A stretch of 64,000 nt of DNA. Origin: Bradyrhizobium sp. BR13661. GTDB lineage: Bacteria; Pseudomonadota; Alphaproteobacteria; Rhizobiales; Xanthobacteraceae. Under the pieces are notes generated by a model. The model saw only the letters and a list, made by a program, of their open reading frames with translations, was not told where the DNA came from and did no database searches. Of the stretch, positions 1,269 to 8,435 are shown piece by piece (position 1 is the stretch's first letter; each line of letters starts with the position of its first letter). The stretch is taken from the NCBI RefSeq assembly GCF_029892425.1, contig NZ_JARXWB010000002.1:124001-188000 (forward strand), in the 5' to 3' direction. Made by a program: the position numbers and the translations under genes.

Positions 1269-2006
1269 TTACGCCTTGTCGCCTGCCGGCGAGAACAAAT
1301 AGCCGCCGCCGCGGATGGTGCGGATCACGGCGGGCTTGGTCGGGTCGGGCTCGATCTTGCGGCGGATGCGCATGATGCGCAGGTCGACGGCGCGGTCGAA
1401 GGCTTCCGCGTCGCGCGCGTTGGCCAATTCCAGCAGGCGCTCGCGCGACAGCACGCGCTTGGGATTGGCCGCGAACACTTTCAAGAGCCCGAATTCGGAT
1501 GCGGTCAGCGGATGCTCGTTGCCCTCGTCGTCGCGCAGGGCCTGGGCTTCGAGATCGAGCCACTTTGTCCCAAAGCGTACCAATTGATCCTTGTCCGATT
1601 TCGCGGGCGCGGCCTCGGCACTCGCGGCCTTCGCCGGCGTGCTCCGCCGCAGCACCGAGCGGATGCGCGCCATCAATTCGCGCAGCTCGCAGGGCTTTGC
1701 GACATAGTCGTCGGCGCCGAGCTCGAGGCCGACGACGCGGTCGATCGGGCTCGCTGTCGCCGTGAGCATGATCACGGGCACGTTGATGCGGCTCTTGAGG
1801 TCGCGGATGATCGAGAGGCCGTCTTCCTCGGGCATGTTGAGGTCGAGCACGACGAGGTCGGGCATGCTGCCGTCGATTGCGGTGCGCAAGGACTTGCCGC
1901 CGTCGCACAGCGTCACGGTGAAGCCGTGCATCTTGAGGTAATCGCCGACCATCTCCCGGGCCGGGGCCTCATCGTCGACGATCATGATGTGCTGGCTTTG
2001 TGTCAT
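1269..2006 (-). CDS. OmpR-family two-component response regulator
   Basis: The protein has 245 residues. The receiver domain occupies residues 5-118, with the acidic pair at 11-12, phospho-acceptor Asp55 in VVLDLNMP and the conserved Lys104. After an Ala/Lys-rich linker a winged-helix DNA-binding domain follows at about 140-238 (LTASEFGLLKVF to IRTIRGGGYLF). It is the last gene of a minus-strand operon and begins 35 bases after the stop of the REC-DUF3369 kinase gene, so that kinase, the membrane kinase upstream, or both, are the likely phosphodonors. Target genes are unknown; the adjoining transport genes are plausible candidates. Confidence 0.93.
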   Translation of the reverse strand: MTQSQHIMIVDDEAPAREMVGDYLKMHGFTVTLCDGGKSLRTAIDGSMPDLVVLDLNMPEEDGLSIIRDLKSRINVPVIMLTATASPIDRVVGLELGADDYVAKPCELRELMARIRSVLRRSTPAKAASAEAAPAKSDKDQLVRFGTKWLDLEAQALRDDEGNEHPLTASEFGLLKVFAANPKRVLSRERLLELANARDAEAFDRAVDLRIMRIRRKIEPDPTKPAVIRTIRGGGYLFSPAGDKA

Positions 2007-2041
2007 GTCACTTCGGAATCTTGCAGATATTGGTGCTCAAA

Positions 2042-3787
2042 TCACGGCATCTCGGTCGCGGGCAGGGTGATGGTGAAGGTCGAGCCCTTGCCCGGCCCGT
2101 CGCTGTCGGCGGTTACCTCGCCGCCATGCATATCGATAATACGCTTGACGATGGACAACCCAAGCCCCGTCGAGCTCTCACCTGCCGTCGGTTTTGCGGA
2201 TAGCCGCTGGAACCGGCCGAACAGGCGGCCGAGATCCTCCGGTGACAGGCCGGCGCCCTCGTCGCTGACGCGGATGATGGTGTCGTTGCCCTCATGGCTG
2301 ACCGCCACAGTGATCTTGCCTGCGATCGGCGAGTATTTGATGGCATTGCTGATCAGATTGTCGATCGCCTCGCGGATGCGGTCGGTGTCGCACATGGTGA
2401 CGATGTTGGCCGGCGCAGTGACGTGGATCGCCTGCTGCTTGTTGACCGCGAGCGGCTGGTTGGCCTCGGCGACCTCCTTCACCAGCGCCGCGACGTCGAC
2501 CGGCTCGCGGCGGATGGTGATGTCGAAGGCATCCGCCATCGCGTCCGAGATCAGATGGTCGACCATCGTGGTCAGGCGCTTGGTGGCGTCGCGGATGTGA
2601 TCGACCTGCGCGACCACGCCTGACGCCGAGGCGCCGGTCGAGATCAGCTCCTTCAGCATCTCGGTGCGGCCGAGGATGACGCCGAGCGGGTTCTTCAGAT
2701 CGTGCGCGACGGTACCCAAAATCTCGTTCTTGAAGCCGTTGGCGCGCTGCAGCCGCAGCCATTGCGCCGAGAGCCGGCGGTTGGCTTGCATCAGCGCGCG
2801 GGTGCGCTGGGCGACGCGGTCTTCCAGCTGGGTGTTGGCGTCCTGGAGCTGCTGGTAGAGGATGACGTTGTCGAACGCGATCGAGAGCCGGCTCGAGAAG
2901 ATCTCGACCAGCGAGCGGTCGGTCTCCGACAGCTCGCGCTCGGCCTGCAGCAGCACCACGACCTCGCGGCCGGATCCGGTGCGCAAATAGATCACGCTGC
3001 GATGGTCGGCGAATTCGTTCTTGCGGCCCTGGAACGCGGCTTCCACCATCGCGCGCAAATCAGGATCGAGCGCCTTCGACGAGGTCGTGCCGATGAAGCG
3101 GCTGTAGCAGCCGCTGCCGGCAAGCACGGAGAGCTCGGGGTCGACGCCGCCATTGTCGCGCAGGACGAGGATGCCGGCGCAGTCGGCATTGAGCAGCGAG
3201 GCGAGCTGGGTCAGCACGCCCTCGGCGAGCCGCTGCATCGACTTGAAGTCGTACAGCGTCGAGGCGGCATCGATGATGATTTCGAGCCCGCGCCGCGTCT
3301 GCACCATGCGCTCGAGCTGCTGGTAGGAGCGCAGCGCCGCGGTCAGTGAGGTGAACAGCTTGTCGGCGGTGAGCTCGGTCTTGGCCTTGTAGTCGTTGAT
3401 GTCGTACTGCACGATCACGCGCCGCTCCGGCGCCTGGCCGGGCTGGCCGGTGCGCAGGATGATGCGCACGGTCTCGTTCTTGAGCTCGTTGCGGATGTAT
3501 TCGACGAGCTCGAGGCCGGCGACGTCGGTCTCCATGATGACATCGAGCAGCACTGCGGCAATGTCGCCGTGCGCAGCCATCAGCTTGCGACCTTCCGCCG
3601 CCGAATGGGCCGAGAGGATCTCCAGGCCCTGGCCGTTGAGGCTGTAGTCCGAGAGCGCAAATCGGGTGCCGTCGTGCACGGCCGGATCGTCGTCGATGAC
3701 GGCGATTTTCCATTTCCGGGCGTCCATATCCTCCGACGCGGTACCGGTATCGTCGATCAGGTGGAGGACATCGTCCTGTTCGGCCAT
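2042..3787 (-). CDS. Receiver-DUF3369-histidine kinase (cytosolic hybrid kinase)
   Basis: The 581-residue protein begins with a receiver domain (residues 25-150, phospho-acceptor Asp82 in LLDVIME). A DUF3369-type region with a GAF-like fold follows (about 160-310), then a short coiled coil. The HisKA domain has its phospho-histidine at His362 in the motif TVAHDLKNP. The HATPase domain has an N box near 465-480, DEGAG near 520 and GLGLSIVKRI near 550. No membrane segment is present, so it is cytosolic. The N-terminal receiver suggests it is itself a phosphorylation target, perhaps of the membrane kinase encoded just upstream, whose gene it overlaps by 31 bases. This makes a phosphorelay ending at the OmpR regulator plausible. 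Confidence 0.9.
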   Translation of the reverse strand: MAEQDDVLHLIDDTGTASEDMDARKWKIAVIDDDPAVHDGTRFALSDYSLNGQGLEILSAHSAAEGRKLMAAHGDIAAVLLDVIMETDVAGLELVEYIRNELKNETVRIILRTGQPGQAPERRVIVQYDINDYKAKTELTADKLFTSLTAALRSYQQLERMVQTRRGLEIIIDAASTLYDFKSMQRLAEGVLTQLASLLNADCAGILVLRDNGGVDPELSVLAGSGCYSRFIGTTSSKALDPDLRAMVEAAFQGRKNEFADHRSVIYLRTGSGREVVVLLQAERELSETDRSLVEIFSSRLSIAFDNVILYQQLQDANTQLEDRVAQRTRALMQANRRLSAQWLRLQRANGFKNEILGTVAHDLKNPLGVILGRTEMLKELISTGASASGVVAQVDHIRDATKRLTTMVDHLISDAMADAFDITIRREPVDVAALVKEVAEANQPLAVNKQQAIHVTAPANIVTMCDTDRIREAIDNLISNAIKYSPIAGKITVAVSHEGNDTIIRVSDEGAGLSPEDLGRLFGRFQRLSAKPTAGESSTGLGLSIVKRIIDMHGGEVTADSDGPGKGSTFTITLPATEMP

Positions 3788-5835
3788 TGCGAAGTCCCGT
3801 CACTTTCTGCGCTTTGCGCGCCGCCCTTGGCGATCCGCGGCATGATAATCCGAAAAGTAGTGCCTTGTCCCAGCTTGGATTCCAGCATCATCCGCCCGCC
3901 CAACTGCTGGGTGACGAGGTTATAGACGATATGGAGGCCGAGTCCCGTGCCACCTTCATTGCGCCTTGTGGTAAAGAATGGGTCAAAGGCCTGGCGCTGC
4001 ACGTCAGGCGTCATGCCGGCCCCGTCATCGGCAAAGATGATCTCGATATCGTCGGTGCCGCGCGGCTTGGCTGCGATCGTGATGGTGCCGGCGCGGCCGT
4101 CGGCAAAGGCGTGGTTGGCGGCGTTCAGGAAGAGGTTGGTCAGGATCTGGCCATAGGAGCCGGGATAGCCGTCGAGCAGCAGCCCCTCGGGCACGTCGAC
4201 CTGGAGCGTGGTCGGCGAGCGCTTGAGAACGGGTCGCAGGCTGGCGATGATCTGGTCGGTGGCTTCGCTCAATGAGAACTGACGGCGCTCGGCATGGGAG
4301 CGGTCGACCGCGACCTGCTTGAACGACTGGATCAGCTCGCCGGCGCGGGTGAGATTGGCGACCAACTGTTGCGAGGCATCGCGCGAGGACTGCACGAACT
4401 CTTCCAGCTGCGAGCGGCGCAAGCCCCCGTCGCCCCTGAGCTGGGCCTCGAAGATCTCGCTGCGCCTGGCAAAGCTCGAGGCCACGGTCAGGCTGATGCC
4501 GATCGGGTTGTTGACCTCATGCGCGACGCCGGCGACGAGGCCGCCGAGCGCGGCGAGCCTTTCGGCGTCGATCAGGTTCTGCTGCGCCGCGTTGAGTTCG
4601 AGCAGCGCGCTCTCGGCCTTTTCCTTCGACGCCCGCAATTCGTCCTCGGTCTCGCGCTTGGCGATCGCGTTCTCGCGGAACACTTCCACCGCGCGGGCCA
4701 TCGCGCCGACCTCGTCGCGGGCCTTGGTGCCCTGCACCTCGCGGCCGAGATCGCCGAGCGTGATCGCGCGCATCGCGGTCATGATCTGCTGCAGCGGCAG
4801 CCGGATTGACAGCGCGATCAGCACGCCGGCGGTGAGGATGATGCCGAGAAAGATCACCGCAATGGACAGCACGCGGCGTGAAATATCCGCCAGCGTGCGG
4901 TCGAAGGTTTCCTGCGCCTTCTGCTCGCGCTGGCGCATCTTGGTCGAGAGATCGTCGATGGCGCCGATCGCCTCGGCCTGGCTGGCGTCGATGGTGTTGC
5001 GCAATAGCTCGGTGCGGTTGGTCAGCTGCTCGGAGAGCTTTGCAAAGCCCTCGCGCATCGCCATGGTGCGGACCGCGAGCTTTTGCAGCGCCATCTTCTG
5101 CAGATCGTTGTCGGCAAGATCGATCATCACGGGGATGGTCTTCTCGATCGTCTCGGTGTGGCGGCGCGCGTCGTCAGCCGCGCCTGATGACTGCGACAGA
5201 TAGTACGAGTTGGCCGCGACCAGCATCGCGGTGAAGGCTTCGCGCGACTTGCCGAGCGAGGGCCAGATCAGCGCATCGCGATGGCCGGTGGCGCCTTCGA
5301 TGATCGAGTACAGGCCGGCCATGTCCCTGGCCGGGCCCTGCACCTGCTCCTCATAGGTCTTGGCGATGGTCGCCTGCACGCTGCGCAGCTCGCCAAAGCC
5401 GTTGAGGAAGCGGTCGGTGGTGCGCTCCAGCTCCTCGACCGAGCCGGACAGCATCGGGTCCTTGGCGGCGCGGTCGGTCAGCGTGCCCAGCACGGCCTCG
5501 CGCAACAGCAGGATCTCGGCGAACAGGTCCGGGCTCGGCTGGTTGATGTAGCGGTGGATCAGGTTCTGCAGGCGCCCGGTCTCGCTTTCGAGCAGCGCCA
5601 GGATCCGGTCGGATTCCCTGACCTGCCGCACGTCGTCCCAGGCCGAGCCCAGCACCTGCGCGCCGTTCCAGATCATCGCCACCAGCACGATCACCACCGC
5701 GGAGTTCAGCGCCGCGATCGACAGGATGCGCCAGCGGATCGGCACCGCCCGCAGCACGCCGACGAGGCGCGCGCGCAGCCGCCCGACCGGGCCGGACGGC
5801 CGTTCTGCGATCTCGCTGGTGCCGGGCGCGATCAA
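3757..5835 (-). CDS. Membrane sensor histidine kinase with large periplasmic domain and HAMP
   Basis: The protein has 692 residues. Two membrane helices (about 36-57 and 321-343) enclose a mostly helical periplasmic sensor region of roughly 260 residues. A HAMP linker (about 343-395) and a coiled coil follow. The HisKA domain has His439 in the motif GVAHEVNNPIG, and the C-terminal HATPase carries DDGAGM and GGTGLGLHIVYNLV. This H-box variant is typical of C4-dicarboxylate DctB-like kinases. The gene starts six bases after the stop of the TRAP binding-protein gene and its end overlaps the next kinase gene by 31 bases, so all are almost certainly cotranscribed. The ligand is unknown; the neighbouring binding protein is the obvious candidate for delivering it. 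Confidence 0.92.
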   Translation of the reverse strand: MIAPGTSEIAERPSGPVGRLRARLVGVLRAVPIRWRILSIAALNSAVVIVLVAMIWNGAQVLGSAWDDVRQVRESDRILALLESETGRLQNLIHRYINQPSPDLFAEILLLREAVLGTLTDRAAKDPMLSGSVEELERTTDRFLNGFGELRSVQATIAKTYEEQVQGPARDMAGLYSIIEGATGHRDALIWPSLGKSREAFTAMLVAANSYYLSQSSGAADDARRHTETIEKTIPVMIDLADNDLQKMALQKLAVRTMAMREGFAKLSEQLTNRTELLRNTIDASQAEAIGAIDDLSTKMRQREQKAQETFDRTLADISRRVLSIAVIFLGIILTAGVLIALSIRLPLQQIMTAMRAITLGDLGREVQGTKARDEVGAMARAVEVFRENAIAKRETEDELRASKEKAESALLELNAAQQNLIDAERLAALGGLVAGVAHEVNNPIGISLTVASSFARRSEIFEAQLRGDGGLRRSQLEEFVQSSRDASQQLVANLTRAGELIQSFKQVAVDRSHAERRQFSLSEATDQIIASLRPVLKRSPTTLQVDVPEGLLLDGYPGSYGQILTNLFLNAANHAFADGRAGTITIAAKPRGTDDIEIIFADDGAGMTPDVQRQAFDPFFTTRRNEGGTGLGLHIVYNLVTQQLGGRMMLESKLGQGTTFRIIMPRIAKGGAQSAESDGTSQWPNRTMSST

Positions 5836-5841
5836 GCGGCG

Positions 5842-6852
5842 TCACTCCACCTTGCGAATGCGTTCGATCAGTGCGGCCGCGGTAGGATCCTGCGCGGTCT
5901 TGGCGTAGATCGGCGCCATCGCGTCCTCGAACGGCTTGCGGTCAATCGTCCTGATCACGGAAATGCCGGCGGCCTCCGCCTTGCGCTGCGACTGCTCCTC
6001 GAGGTCGCGCCATTTCTCGCGCATGTACAGGCTCGAGCGCGCCGCGGCTTCCCTGAAGATGGTCTGGTCCTCGGCCGACAGGCTCTTCCAGGCCTTGAGC
6101 GAGATCACCAGCACTTCGGGGCTCATCGTGTGCTCGGTGAGAGTGTAGTAGACGGCGTGCTTGTAATGGTCTGTGGTCACGAAGGATGGCCAGTTGTTCT
6201 CGGCGCCGTCGATCAGATGGGTCGCGAGCCCCGTGAGCACCTGCCCATACGGCAGTTCGATCGGCTCGGCGCCGAGGGCGCGGATCATATCGCTCATCAA
6301 CTCCGATTGCTGCACCCGGATCCGCAAACCCTTGAGATCGGCGATGCTCTTCACCGGACGGACGTTGTTGTAGATCGAGCGTGCCCCGGAATCGTAGAAG
6401 GCGAGCCCGACGAAGCCGTAGGGCTCGAAGCTGCCGAGGATTTCCTTGCCGATCGGCCCGTCCAGCACCTTCTGCATGTGCTCGATGGACCGGAACAGGA
6501 ACGGCATGGCCAGCACGTTCATCGCCGGAACGAAATTGCCGATCAGGGCGACGTTGGTCCGGTTGAGGTCGATCGCGCCGGCGCGCGTCTGCTCGATCGT
6601 CTCCTTCTCCTCGCCGAGCTGGCGGGAGTGAAACACCTTGATCTCGTGGCGGCCGCCGGTGCGCTCAGCGATCAGGGCGCCCATGTAGCGCAGCGCCTGG
6701 ACGGTCGGGTAGTTCTCGGTCTGGGTGTCGGCGGCGCGGAATTCGCGCGCAGCCACGCTCGTCGCGCCCACGTCCATCGTGAACGTGGCGAGCAGAAGCG
6801 CGACGAAAATCACCCCGGTCCGTGAGAGTTCGGCACGGTTTAACACTGGCAC
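5842..6852 (-). CDS. TRAP-type (DctP family) periplasmic solute-binding protein, no permease genes nearby
   Basis: The protein is a DctP-family extracytoplasmic solute receptor of about 336 residues. It has a hydrophobic signal segment (TGVIFVALLLATFTM) and the family features of a REFRAADTQ start, SRQLGEEKETIEQ, a central LKGLRIRVQQS and GAENNWPSF. The frame stays open to 7122, but the GTG at 6852 is preferred because it has a GAGG ribosome-binding site and puts the signal peptide at the N-terminus; a TTG at 6858 is also possible. No DctQ or DctM permease gene is present. Instead the gene heads a two-component operon, which suggests a sensory rather than, or as well as, a transport role. Confidence 0.85.
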   Translation of the reverse strand: MPVLNRAELSRTGVIFVALLLATFTMDVGATSVAAREFRAADTQTENYPTVQALRYMGALIAERTGGRHEIKVFHSRQLGEEKETIEQTRAGAIDLNRTNVALIGNFVPAMNVLAMPFLFRSIEHMQKVLDGPIGKEILGSFEPYGFVGLAFYDSGARSIYNNVRPVKSIADLKGLRIRVQQSELMSDMIRALGAEPIELPYGQVLTGLATHLIDGAENNWPSFVTTDHYKHAVYYTLTEHTMSPEVLVISLKAWKSLSAEDQTIFREAAARSSLYMREKWRDLEEQSQRKAEAAGISVIRTIDRKPFEDAMAPIYAKTAQDPTAAALIERIRKVE

Positions 6853-6910
6853 ACTCAACCCCTCGGAGATGGAGTCTATGGCGGGACCAAAAGGTTCAAT
6901 GCAATCTAAA

Positions 6911-6954
6911 GCGTTTTCGAGCGAAGTGGATACCGGTTCGCGTGAAGAAAACGC
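6911..6954. repeat. Short rhizobial palindromic repeat (GCGTTTTC...GAAAACGC)
   Basis: GCGTTTTC at 6911-6918 pairs with GAAAACGC at 6947-6954, with a GC-rich centre that includes the hexamer ACCGGT. This looks like a dispersed intergenic element widespread in Rhizobiales. It lies in the 257-bp divergent region between the TRAP binding-protein gene and the UgpB-like gene. No clear promoter could be picked out there. Confidence 0.6.
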
Positions 6955-7109
6955 GTCAAAGCTAAAAATCCAGATGGTAAAGGGAAGGCCATCCCGCCCG
7001 GGCCGGTGATTGTGCGGTGCCGCCGCCGTCATTCCCGGTTGAAACGTTGGGTGCCGCGCCTTAAGCAGGGTGCGGCCGCCTTTTGCCGCTTGATACGGGA
7101 AGAGCCATC

Positions 7110-8435
7110 GTGATTTCAGCATTGCGCCTTTTGCAGGTCGTCGCGGTGACCGCGGTCCTTACGTCAAGCTTACAGGCGCAAGCGGCCACCGATATCGCGT
7201 GGTGGCACGCCATGTCGGGTGAGCTCGGCAAGCAGCTCGAAAAGCTCGCCACCGATTTCAACGCTTCGCAGTCCGATTACCGCGTCGTGCCATCGTATAA
7301 GGGCAATTACACCGAGACGGTGACGGCCGCGATCTTCGCCTTCCGCTCGCGCAGCCAGCCGGCGATCGTCCAGGTCAACGAGGTCGCCACCGCAACGATG
7401 ACCGCCGCCAAGGGCGCGATCTATCCGGTCTACAGCATGATGCGCGACATGGGCGAGCCGTTCTCGCTCAACGACTATCTTCCGGCGGTCTCCGGCTATT
7501 ACACCGATGCGTCAGGCAATCTGCTGTCGTTCCCGTTCAACTCCTCGACGCCGATCCTCTATTACAACAAGACCATGTTCCGCGCCGCCGGCCTTGATCC
7601 CGAGACGCCGCCGAAGACGTGGCCCGAACTCGGCGCGCTTGCAAAGCGCCTGCGTGATTACGGCGCTGTCTGCGGCTTCACCACGTCGTGGCCGTCCTGG
7701 ATCCATGTCGAGAATTTTTCGGCGTTCCACAATCTTCCGCTGGCCACGCGCGCCAATGGCTTTGGTGGCCTCGATGCGGAATTGACCATCAACAATCCTG
7801 TGGTCGTCAAGCACATCGCCCAGCTCGCCGAATGGCAAAAGACAAAACTGTTCGACTATAGCGGCCGCGGGCAGTCGGCCGAGCCGCGCTTCCAGAACGG
7901 CGAATGCGGCATCTTCATCGGCTCTTCGGCGACGCGCGCCGACATCAAGGCTAATTCAAAGTTCGACATCGGCTACGGCATGATGCCGTACTGGCCAGAC
8001 ATAGCAGGCGCGCCGCAGAATTCCATCATCGGCGGCGCCACGCTCTGGGTGCTGCGCGACCGGCCGCGCGAGGAGTACAAGGGCGTGGCGCGGTTCTTCG
8101 CTTATCTGTCGCAGCCCGGCGTGCAGGCCGTCTGGCATCAGAACACCGGATATCTGCCAATCACCCGCGCCGCCTTCGAGCTGACGCGCGCGCAAGGCTT
8201 CTACGAGCGCAATCCGGGCTCGGCGATCTCATTCGAGGAGATCACGCTGCATCAACCGACCGAGAATTCGAAGGGCATCCGGCTCGGCTCCTTCAACCTG
8301 ATCCGTGGCACGATCGAGGATGAGCTGGAGCAGGCCTTTGCCGGCCAGAAGAGCGCGCAAGCCGCCCTCGATTCCGCCGTCGAGCGCGGCAACAAGCTCC
8401 TGCGCCAGTTCGAGCGCGCCAGTCCGGAACGGTAG
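7110..8435 (+). CDS. ABC transporter substrate-binding protein, UgpB/glycerol-3-phosphate-like
   Basis: This family-1 extracellular binding protein of 441 residues resembles UgpB, the sn-glycerol-3-phosphate receptor. A signal peptide (about residues 1-25, ending LQAQA) precedes ATDIAWWHAM, with FPFNSSTPILYYNKTMF and FTTSWPSWIHVENFSAFHN further on, all typical of UgpB. The GTG at 7110 is chosen because GGGAAG lies about eight bases upstream; an in-frame TTG at 7083 would give an odd leader. No UgpA, UgpE or UgpC genes are present, so it is an orphan. The substrate is inferred from family resemblance only. Confidence 0.85.
   Translation: MISALRLLQVVAVTAVLTSSLQAQAATDIAWWHAMSGELGKQLEKLATDFNASQSDYRVVPSYKGNYTETVTAAIFAFRSRSQPAIVQVNEVATATMTAAKGAIYPVYSMMRDMGEPFSLNDYLPAVSGYYTDASGNLLSFPFNSSTPILYYNKTMFRAAGLDPETPPKTWPELGALAKRLRDYGAVCGFTTSWPSWIHVENFSAFHNLPLATRANGFGGLDAELTINNPVVVKHIAQLAEWQKTKLFDYSGRGQSAEPRFQNGECGIFIGSSATRADIKANSKFDIGYGMMPYWPDIAGAPQNSIIGGATLWVLRDRPREEYKGVARFFAYLSQPGVQAVWHQNTGYLPITRAAFELTRAQGFYERNPGSAISFEEITLHQPTENSKGIRLGSFNLIRGTIEDELEQAFAGQKSAQAALDSAVERGNKLLRQFERASPER

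Follow-up and report, generated by a model that had tools for sequence, protein, structure and literature searches.

The window analysed here, a stretch of 64,000 nucleotides of Bradyrhizobium sp. BR13661 (contig NZ_JARXWB010000002.1, positions 124,001 to 188,000), harbors on its reverse strand four packed genes encoding a DctP-family receptor of the tripartite ATP-independent periplasmic (TRAP) transporter type, a membrane histidine kinase, a receiver-DUF3369-kinase protein and an OmpR-type response regulator (Table 1). The question that this locus raises is what a transport receptor does in an operon of signalling genes that contains no TRAP permease. The comparison of the related loci makes it reasonably probable that the four genes encode a receptor-coupled phosphorelay, in which the DctP receptor would dock on the membrane-distal tip of the kinase as a dispensable modulator.

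Gene order and distribution of the operon

The organization of the operon is the one described in the original prediction: the receptor and kinase genes are separated by 6 bp, the kinase and DUF3369 genes overlap by 31 bp, and a gap of 35 bp follows; the four phospho-acceptor residues (His439, Asp82, His362 and Asp55) are located where they had been placed and show no variation in any row that covers them; the periplasmic domain, described as spanning about 260 residues, covers 264 residues between the hydrophobic segments 36-56 and 321-341; and DctQM is absent, none of the DctM/DctQ matches of the genome falling in the 64-kb window. The predicted topology of the membrane kinase consists of a first transmembrane segment (TM1, about 36-56), the periplasmic sensor (57-320), a second segment (TM2, about 321-341), and then the HAMP and HATPase domains. 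Since the genome contains a single DUF3369 protein and the same gene order recurs in other families, the grouping of the four genes reflects more than chance.

Of the 296 genomes in the family sample, 97 carry the sensor domain, with one match each except for one broken copy in two pieces, and the flanks of all 97 loci, the window locus included, were read. Beside the kinase, the receptor is intact in 38 loci, frameshifted in one, reduced to remnants in six and absent in 50, the last two loci lying at a contig edge; the receptor is thus lost or broken in 57/97 loci and not judgeable in 2/97, with frameshifted, partial and remnant receptors counted as lost, some of which, in draft contigs, could be sequencing errors. 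The DUF3369 partner is visible in 56 of these 57 loci, and the remaining one is cut by the contig end. In the remnants of L109-L111, L142 and L144, frames of 82-96 codons keep the start and the signal peptide and might encode small secreted proteins; the L109 frame continues into the receptor's own C-terminus, and the other four end beside the kinase start.

A search across the order disclosed the sensor in 33/397 genomes, 17 of which belong to three other families (f192, f200 and f186), and 14 of these 17 loci were read. The same four-gene order is present in 12/14, all of them from f192 and f200; in L277 (f200) the operon lacks the receptor, and in L273 (f186) the receptor is truncated and the regulator is inverted and located on the other side. 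Hence, the permease-free order is intact in three families (the own family, f192 and f200) and decayed in a fourth (f186). The genome search for this order without dctQM, put forward in the original prediction, therefore gave a positive answer, both in the family (38/97 loci with an intact receptor) and outside it (12/14). In a class-wide search of 385 genomes, the full-length kinase/sensor was found only in the genus. A separate scan of named genomes, overlapping in part with the family sample, covered the best 80 of 250 relatives, which are Bradyrhizobium or unclassified alphaproteobacterial loci plus one named Frankia; among these best 80, the receptor is full in 72, partial in six and missing in two. 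The record named Frankia sp. RB7 (L186), with a kinase sensor 95% identical to the one in the window, is probably mislabelled or contaminated, and two operon copies with identical receptor sequence (L250/L251), found on one draft contig of Bradyrhizobium japonicum, represent either a duplication or an assembly artefact. Judging from the family and order-level loci and from the trees described below, the permease-free four-gene order is old, and a local oddity is ruled out.

It could be argued that we are dealing with an ordinary orphan receptor of the TRAP type, which serves a DctQM pair encoded elsewhere and lies in this operon because the regulator controls its expression. The genome is rich in such genes, with 14 DctP matches, eight DctQ matches and nine DctM matches corresponding to eight DctM genes, and one permease, on contig C6, is about 10 kb from the closest DctP genes; moreover, BctC of Bordetella serves both transport and signalling (PMC5812351). 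The other seven of the eight permeases, however, already have a DctP gene adjoining by position, and in 43 genomes searched whole the matches to the receptor above 54% identity were found only beside the operon kinase; a relocation of the receptor in receptor-less genomes was likewise not seen among them. DctM/DctQ queries over 97 + 80 + 14 loci gave a single match (E 1e-4), in the receptor-less L081, and none in the flanks read around receptor-bearing loci; of the seven DctM queries used in this check, four or more recovered the control locus, and three over-long frames, possibly wrong, did not. The use of the receptor by a dctQM pair elsewhere, which would tell against a signalling role, was therefore sought in whole genomes and in flanks and was not seen. 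Since an orphan transport receptor would also leave unexplained the change of the sensor tip at receptor loss reported in the next section, we regard this explanation as unlikely. As a side observation, two of the DctM matches are pieces of one frame (G000:C6:77448-78902) repeating part of the profile, which might point to an insertion in that permease.

Receptor loss and the sensor of the kinase

The phylogenetic history of the receptor follows that of its partners. For the 49 loci with a receptor, 25 of the 29 core splits with strong support reappear in the receptor tree, whose own 16 strong splits are all free of conflict with the core tree, and the receptor and kinase distances are highly correlated (Mantel r = 0.91). 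This agreement with the kinase and core trees indicates that the receptor was present early and lost later. The first trees were constructed on the 90/97 family loci in which the kinase and DUF3369 proteins are nearly complete, and the enlarged set comprised 156/166 rows after the removal of identical rows; L259 (one of the 80 loci from named genomes, on a short contig without DUF3369) and L078 (a fragmented genome in which the kinase and DUF3369 frames are broken) stayed outside the trees. At least 11 receptor changes are forced by well-supported branches of the 90-row tree, loss-only counting gives 14 losses there, and the enlarged tree gives 21 losses, to which two further ones among the order-level loci are added. 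On the evidence of these gene contents, the receptor is dispensable, i.e., an optional co-receptor rather than a fixed piece of wiring.

In order to assess the behavior of the sensor, the share of change falling in each protein module on the loss branches was compared with that on branches matched for change elsewhere (5000 resamplings; 240 branches present in all partition trees). An earlier comparison with two reference domains by matched resampling had given p 0.02 and 0 of 5000 for the sensor. In the first set (14 losses), the sensor share is 0.403 vs 0.267 (p 0.0002), and none of the five other modules is raised; in the enlarged set (21 losses), it is 0.341 vs 0.242 (p 0.0003), with a largest leave-one-out p of 0.017. 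New-only, old-only and short-branch variants were also run on the enlarged set, and branch-length ratios with bootstrap on the first one. The effect falls in the membrane-distal module of the sensor, the proximal/distal split having been drawn from predicted helices and fixed in the script before the outcome was seen: relative to the five other modules, the distal module reaches 0.235 vs 0.122 on the 21 loss branches (0 of 5000), whereas the proximal one remains at 0.136 vs 0.130 (p 0.38). Parsimony counts of the distal vs the proximal module agree (odds 1.51, p 1.3e-4), and the distal effect holds separately on 13 tip and eight internal branches. A general relaxation of the sensor after receptor loss was rejected, since the later branches keep the earlier rate (0.236 vs 0.249), with a somewhat faster distal module (0.151 vs 0.119) and a slower proximal one (0.096 vs 0.141).

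Single sites point to the same region. Asp239 shows no change on receptor-present branches and 18 on loss or later branches (corrected p 4.5e-5), followed in the site test by Val236, Leu240, Leu189 and Gly174, none of which survives correction, as is also the case for all the kinase-domain sites. Leu189, Val236, Asp239 and Leu240 are constant in 49/49 receptor-bearing rows and vary after loss; out of sample, all four are retained in 12/12 receptor-bearing order-level loci, and Pro189 is present in both order-level loci with a lost or truncated receptor and in 10/56 family losses. According to our reading of the predicted helix layout, the affected sites would lie near the helix ends that meet at the membrane-distal tip.

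Several observations weigh against a docking receptor and have to be set beside these results. The matched-branch resampling is a heuristic and not a fitted model. When the six added losses are taken alone, the whole sensor gives 0.297 vs 0.239 (p 0.17), the distal module p 0.06, and the DUF3369 receiver reaches p 0.03; on the loss branches at large, the kinase domain is somewhat raised (p 0.015-0.024), and with one of the two matchings the proximal module also comes to p 0.08. Gly174 and Glu231 failed as interface sites out of sample, being retained in only 3/12 order-level loci. Moreover, Asp239 is retained in 30/56 family losses and in both order-level ones, and Leu189 in 25/56 family losses. 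Lastly, the AlphaFold2 model of the receptor, built from 11 rows, failed, with a predicted local distance difference test score (pLDDT) of 38.7.

On balance, a specific change of the sensor's distal tip with receptor loss is supported by these comparisons, and such a change is what a docking receptor predicts. The idea that the receptor presents a ligand to the membrane kinase hence survives in part: co-inheritance without a permease and the change of the tip at loss speak for it, whereas the wiring is not fixed, given the many loci (57/97) in which the receptor is lost or broken. It is also conceivable, and we put it forward tentatively, that the losses form a natural series of escapes, in which the kinase would have become independent of its co-receptor on about 23 occasions (21 + 2), with changes of the distal tip (such as the recurrent Leu189->Pro) accompanying the passage from a receptor-gated to a receptor-free state and with the relay kept.

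Ligand, sensor fold and relay

The receptor scores above the cut-offs of the NCBIfam models TRAP_S1 and dctP, as a TRAP receptor should, and consists of a signal peptide and a mature protein starting at about residue 36. Its nearest solved structures are 4N8Y, 4MHF/4MIJ, 4OVR and 4X8R. The structure 4N8Y contains galacturonate and 4X8R contains glucuronate (PMC11668362), the 4MHF protein binds glucuronate/galacturonate, and two arginines and one asparagine hold the uronate in hexuronate-binding DctP receptors (PMC7660916). In the receptor, R158 (6379-6381), R179 (6316-6318) and N219 (6196-6198) are invariant in 38 sequences and, in our reading of the alignments, would correspond to these three residues. 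Since 4N8Y, 4X8R and the 4MHF protein bind uronates and these residues align, the ligand is probably a hexuronate, e.g., galacturonate. The same genome harbors, on contig C19, a paralogue (49% identical to the operon receptor) which is much closer to 4N8Y (681 bits vs 343) and whose gene is followed by DctQ and DctM; this is likely the uptake system.

No Pfam sensor model matches the sensor domain at E 0.01, nor does the HBM sequence family, and a profile search against the sequences of the Protein Data Bank gave no relative (best E 6.5). Its AlphaFold2 model (pLDDT 73.9, predicted template modelling score 0.46) is all-helical, with a TorS-like arrangement in two bundles. The best structural neighbours are the ligand-binding domain of the chemoreceptor McpS (Foldseek E 1e-4, Z 17.6) and the TorS sensor, both alone (Foldseek E 1e-2, Z 16.3) and in complexes with TorT (Z about 15); the margin is moderate, because a TTYH channel (Z 16.4) ranks between McpS and TorS and other helical bundles reach up to 13.6. 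TorS is described in PMC8534201 and PMC6321045 as two stacked four-helix bundles forming a complex with TorT. As McpS binds its ligand directly and TorS docks a receptor, the predicted fold is found with both modes of sensing.

The sensor might therefore bind its ligand directly, in the manner of McpS, with the receptor merely scavenging the same ligand, and both receptor loss and sensor change might follow a change of diet. The McpS fold does bind ligands directly (structures with malate and succinate), the phospho-acceptors are intact after receptor loss, and the sensor remains equally constrained after it, as the rates of the later branches given above show. The concentration of change in the distal module, with the most affected sites at its tip in the predicted helix layout, speaks against this explanation unless a ligand pocket lies there, and we consider it improbable, if somewhat less so than that of an orphan transport receptor.

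Under the preferred reading of a receptor-coupled phosphorelay, the DctP receptor would bind a carboxylated sugar in the periplasm, probably a hexuronate, and dock on the membrane-distal tip of the helical sensor, as the comparative evidence suggests; by analogy with TorT-TorS, its ligand state would shift the sensor through TM2 and HAMP. In this way, the ligand state would control the transfer of phosphate from H439 to D82 in the receiver-DUF3369-kinase and, by way of H362 of that protein, to D55 of the OmpR regulator, the order of these steps being the presumed one. The receptor would modulate this chain without being required, and receptor-less lineages probably use the proximal module or another input route.

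Several features of the proteins bear on this scheme. In the membrane kinase, Pfam recognizes HAMP and HATPase_c; the HisKA model does not match it, yet an AHEVNN box with His439 is present, and a same-chain receiver and phosphotransfer (HPt) domain of the TorS type were not found. The receiver-DUF3369-kinase is expected to lack a membrane segment. The four phospho-acceptors stay in all covered rows, with and without the receptor; the remaining catalytic positions compared include one N-box Asn that is replaced by Asp in a single receptor-bearing row. Because the phospho-acceptors stay and the sensor keeps its earlier rate, the relay seems to go on without the receptor. In the genus g285 (L085-L088, L178 and L179), the OmpR regulator was not found beside the kinases, one locus having little room before the contig end, and a search of five whole genomes for it elsewhere gave a best match of 48% identity or none; the output of the relay may be something else in this genus, and the membrane kinase and the receiver-DUF3369-kinase appear to be the lasting core of the system. 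With two kinases, two receivers and all the acceptors conserved, the branched relay proposed in the original prediction is possible, and the data fit a branched and a linear chain alike. Elsewhere in the same genome, a second, larger kinase (L047, G000:C5:144973-145848) has a catalytic part 55% identical to that of the membrane kinase.

Flanking regions and related systems

The features of the locus are reported in Table 1. The GTG start of the receptor at 6852 is backed by homologues beginning at the same place; a longer open reading frame (ORF) reaching 7122 would overlap the divergent gene.

Table 1. Position of the operon genes, of the sensor sites and of the adjacent divergent gene in the window
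Feature	Position	Strand	Basis and remarks
OmpR-type response regulator	1269..2006	-	ORF; Response_reg + Trans_reg_C (Pfam); D55 = 1842-1844
Receiver-DUF3369-HisKA-HATPase_c protein	2042..3787	-	ORF, Pfam; D82 = 3542-3544; H362 = 2702-2704
Membrane histidine kinase	3757..5835	-	ORF, Pfam; HAMP + HATPase_c; H439 = 4519-4521
DctP-family (TRAP) periplasmic receptor, orphan	5842..6852	-	ORF, Pfam DctP 282 bits
Membrane-distal sensor module (kinase residues 155-270)	5026..5373	-	Predicted helices; changes upon receptor loss
Leu189 of kinase, tip loop	5269..5271	-	Leu in 49/49 receptor-bearing rows; recurrently Pro after loss
Val236-Leu240 of kinase, sensor tip	5116..5130	-	Site test and order-level loci
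Divergent upstream region shared with UgpB-like gene	6853..7082	-	Contains TTGAACCTTT at 6890-6899
UgpB-like solute-binding protein of the ATP-binding cassette (ABC) type, divergent	7083..8435	+	UgpB equivalog, 561 bits (cut-off 411)

A binding site of the regulator was sought in the divergent upstream region, where only a promoter-like box and the motif TTGAACCTTT were found to recur. The first base of this motif lies 47 nt before the start of the receptor gene, and its support comes from recurrence in relatives, because the window contains one match vs 1.0 expected by chance; it is present in 52/95 upstream regions of relatives (shuffled mean 5.5). A GATAGCCA box, present in 34/95 (shuffled mean 7), is followed by a CTGCTAAAAT-like box in a promoter-like arrangement, and the GATAGCCA box was not seen in the window itself. 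Both GATAGCCA and TTGAACCTTT recur upstream of receptor-bearing, remnant and receptor-less loci alike. On the other side of the operon, downstream of the regulator and on the same strand, lies a gene for an extracytoplasmic function (ECF)-type sigma factor (379-1041, -; PRK12515 family, 349 bits), matched in 29/40 loci inspected.

The UgpB-like protein encoded by the divergent gene might itself be the partner of the kinase in place of DctP, given that its gene accompanies the operon in 81/97 family loci, including 51/57 of those with DctP lost or broken, and that no permease gene (UgpA/E/C) lies beside it in the window. It is, however, a clear UgpB equivalog by its score, and it is unmatched both in the deep family loci (L078-L084 and L180-L182) and in all 14 loci of the other families, 12 of which have DctP. 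A role as the kinase's partner is therefore very improbable for this protein, and the DctP receptor remains the preferred candidate.

Among the known systems, ChvE-VirA-VirG of Agrobacterium resembles the present one in that a receptor for sugars and sugar acids stimulates a membrane kinase acting on an OmpR-type regulator; ChvE, however, belongs to the ABC-type sugar receptors, VirA responds to phenolics as well, and the system is not known to include a DUF3369 protein. In the TorT-TorS-TorR system of E. coli and Vibrio, whose regulator is also of the OmpR type, TorT contacts the membrane-distal part of TorS; TorT lies outside the DctP family, and TorS, a hybrid kinase, carries a receiver and a phosphotransfer domain in its own chain. 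The likeness would lie in the docking of a binding protein of the periplasm on a sensor kinase whose helices form two bundles, as reported for TorT and TorS in PMC8534201 and PMC6321045; here, in contrast, the receptor is a DctP protein that has often been lost, and the receiver belongs to another kinase, the one with DUF3369. In BctC-BctE/BctD of Bordetella, the sensor kinase likewise receives its signal from a receptor related to secondary transporters, but BctC belongs to the TctC family, i.e., the receptors of tripartite tricarboxylate transporters (TTT), and the permease genes bctBA are included in its operon (PMC5812351). The hexuronate TRAP transporters (4N8Y type, STM3169) are alike in receptor family and ligand residues, whereas the operon studied here lacks DctQM. 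PMC9602780 counts about ten characterised contacts between binding proteins and kinases and puts at 13 or more the families of receptors that bind signalling receptors. The literature searched gave no example of a kinase controlled by a receptor of the DctP family in the absence of a permease, BctC-BctE being the nearest case, which is no proof of absence in print; the papers naming the DUF3369 domain in this literature concern cyclic di-GMP (c-di-GMP).

Taken together, the comparative data suggest that the system is TorT-TorS-like, but with a TRAP receptor as an optional co-receptor, and the proposal that receptor and kinase work together gains support from them. The repeated loss of the receptor would represent a natural mutational scan of the interface, which names candidate residues, and the way in which a sensor kinase gains or loses a co-receptor becomes directly testable. 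For Bradyrhizobium and its relatives, the operon might encode a possible sensor of plant sugar acids, in which DUF3369 kinases may find a role.

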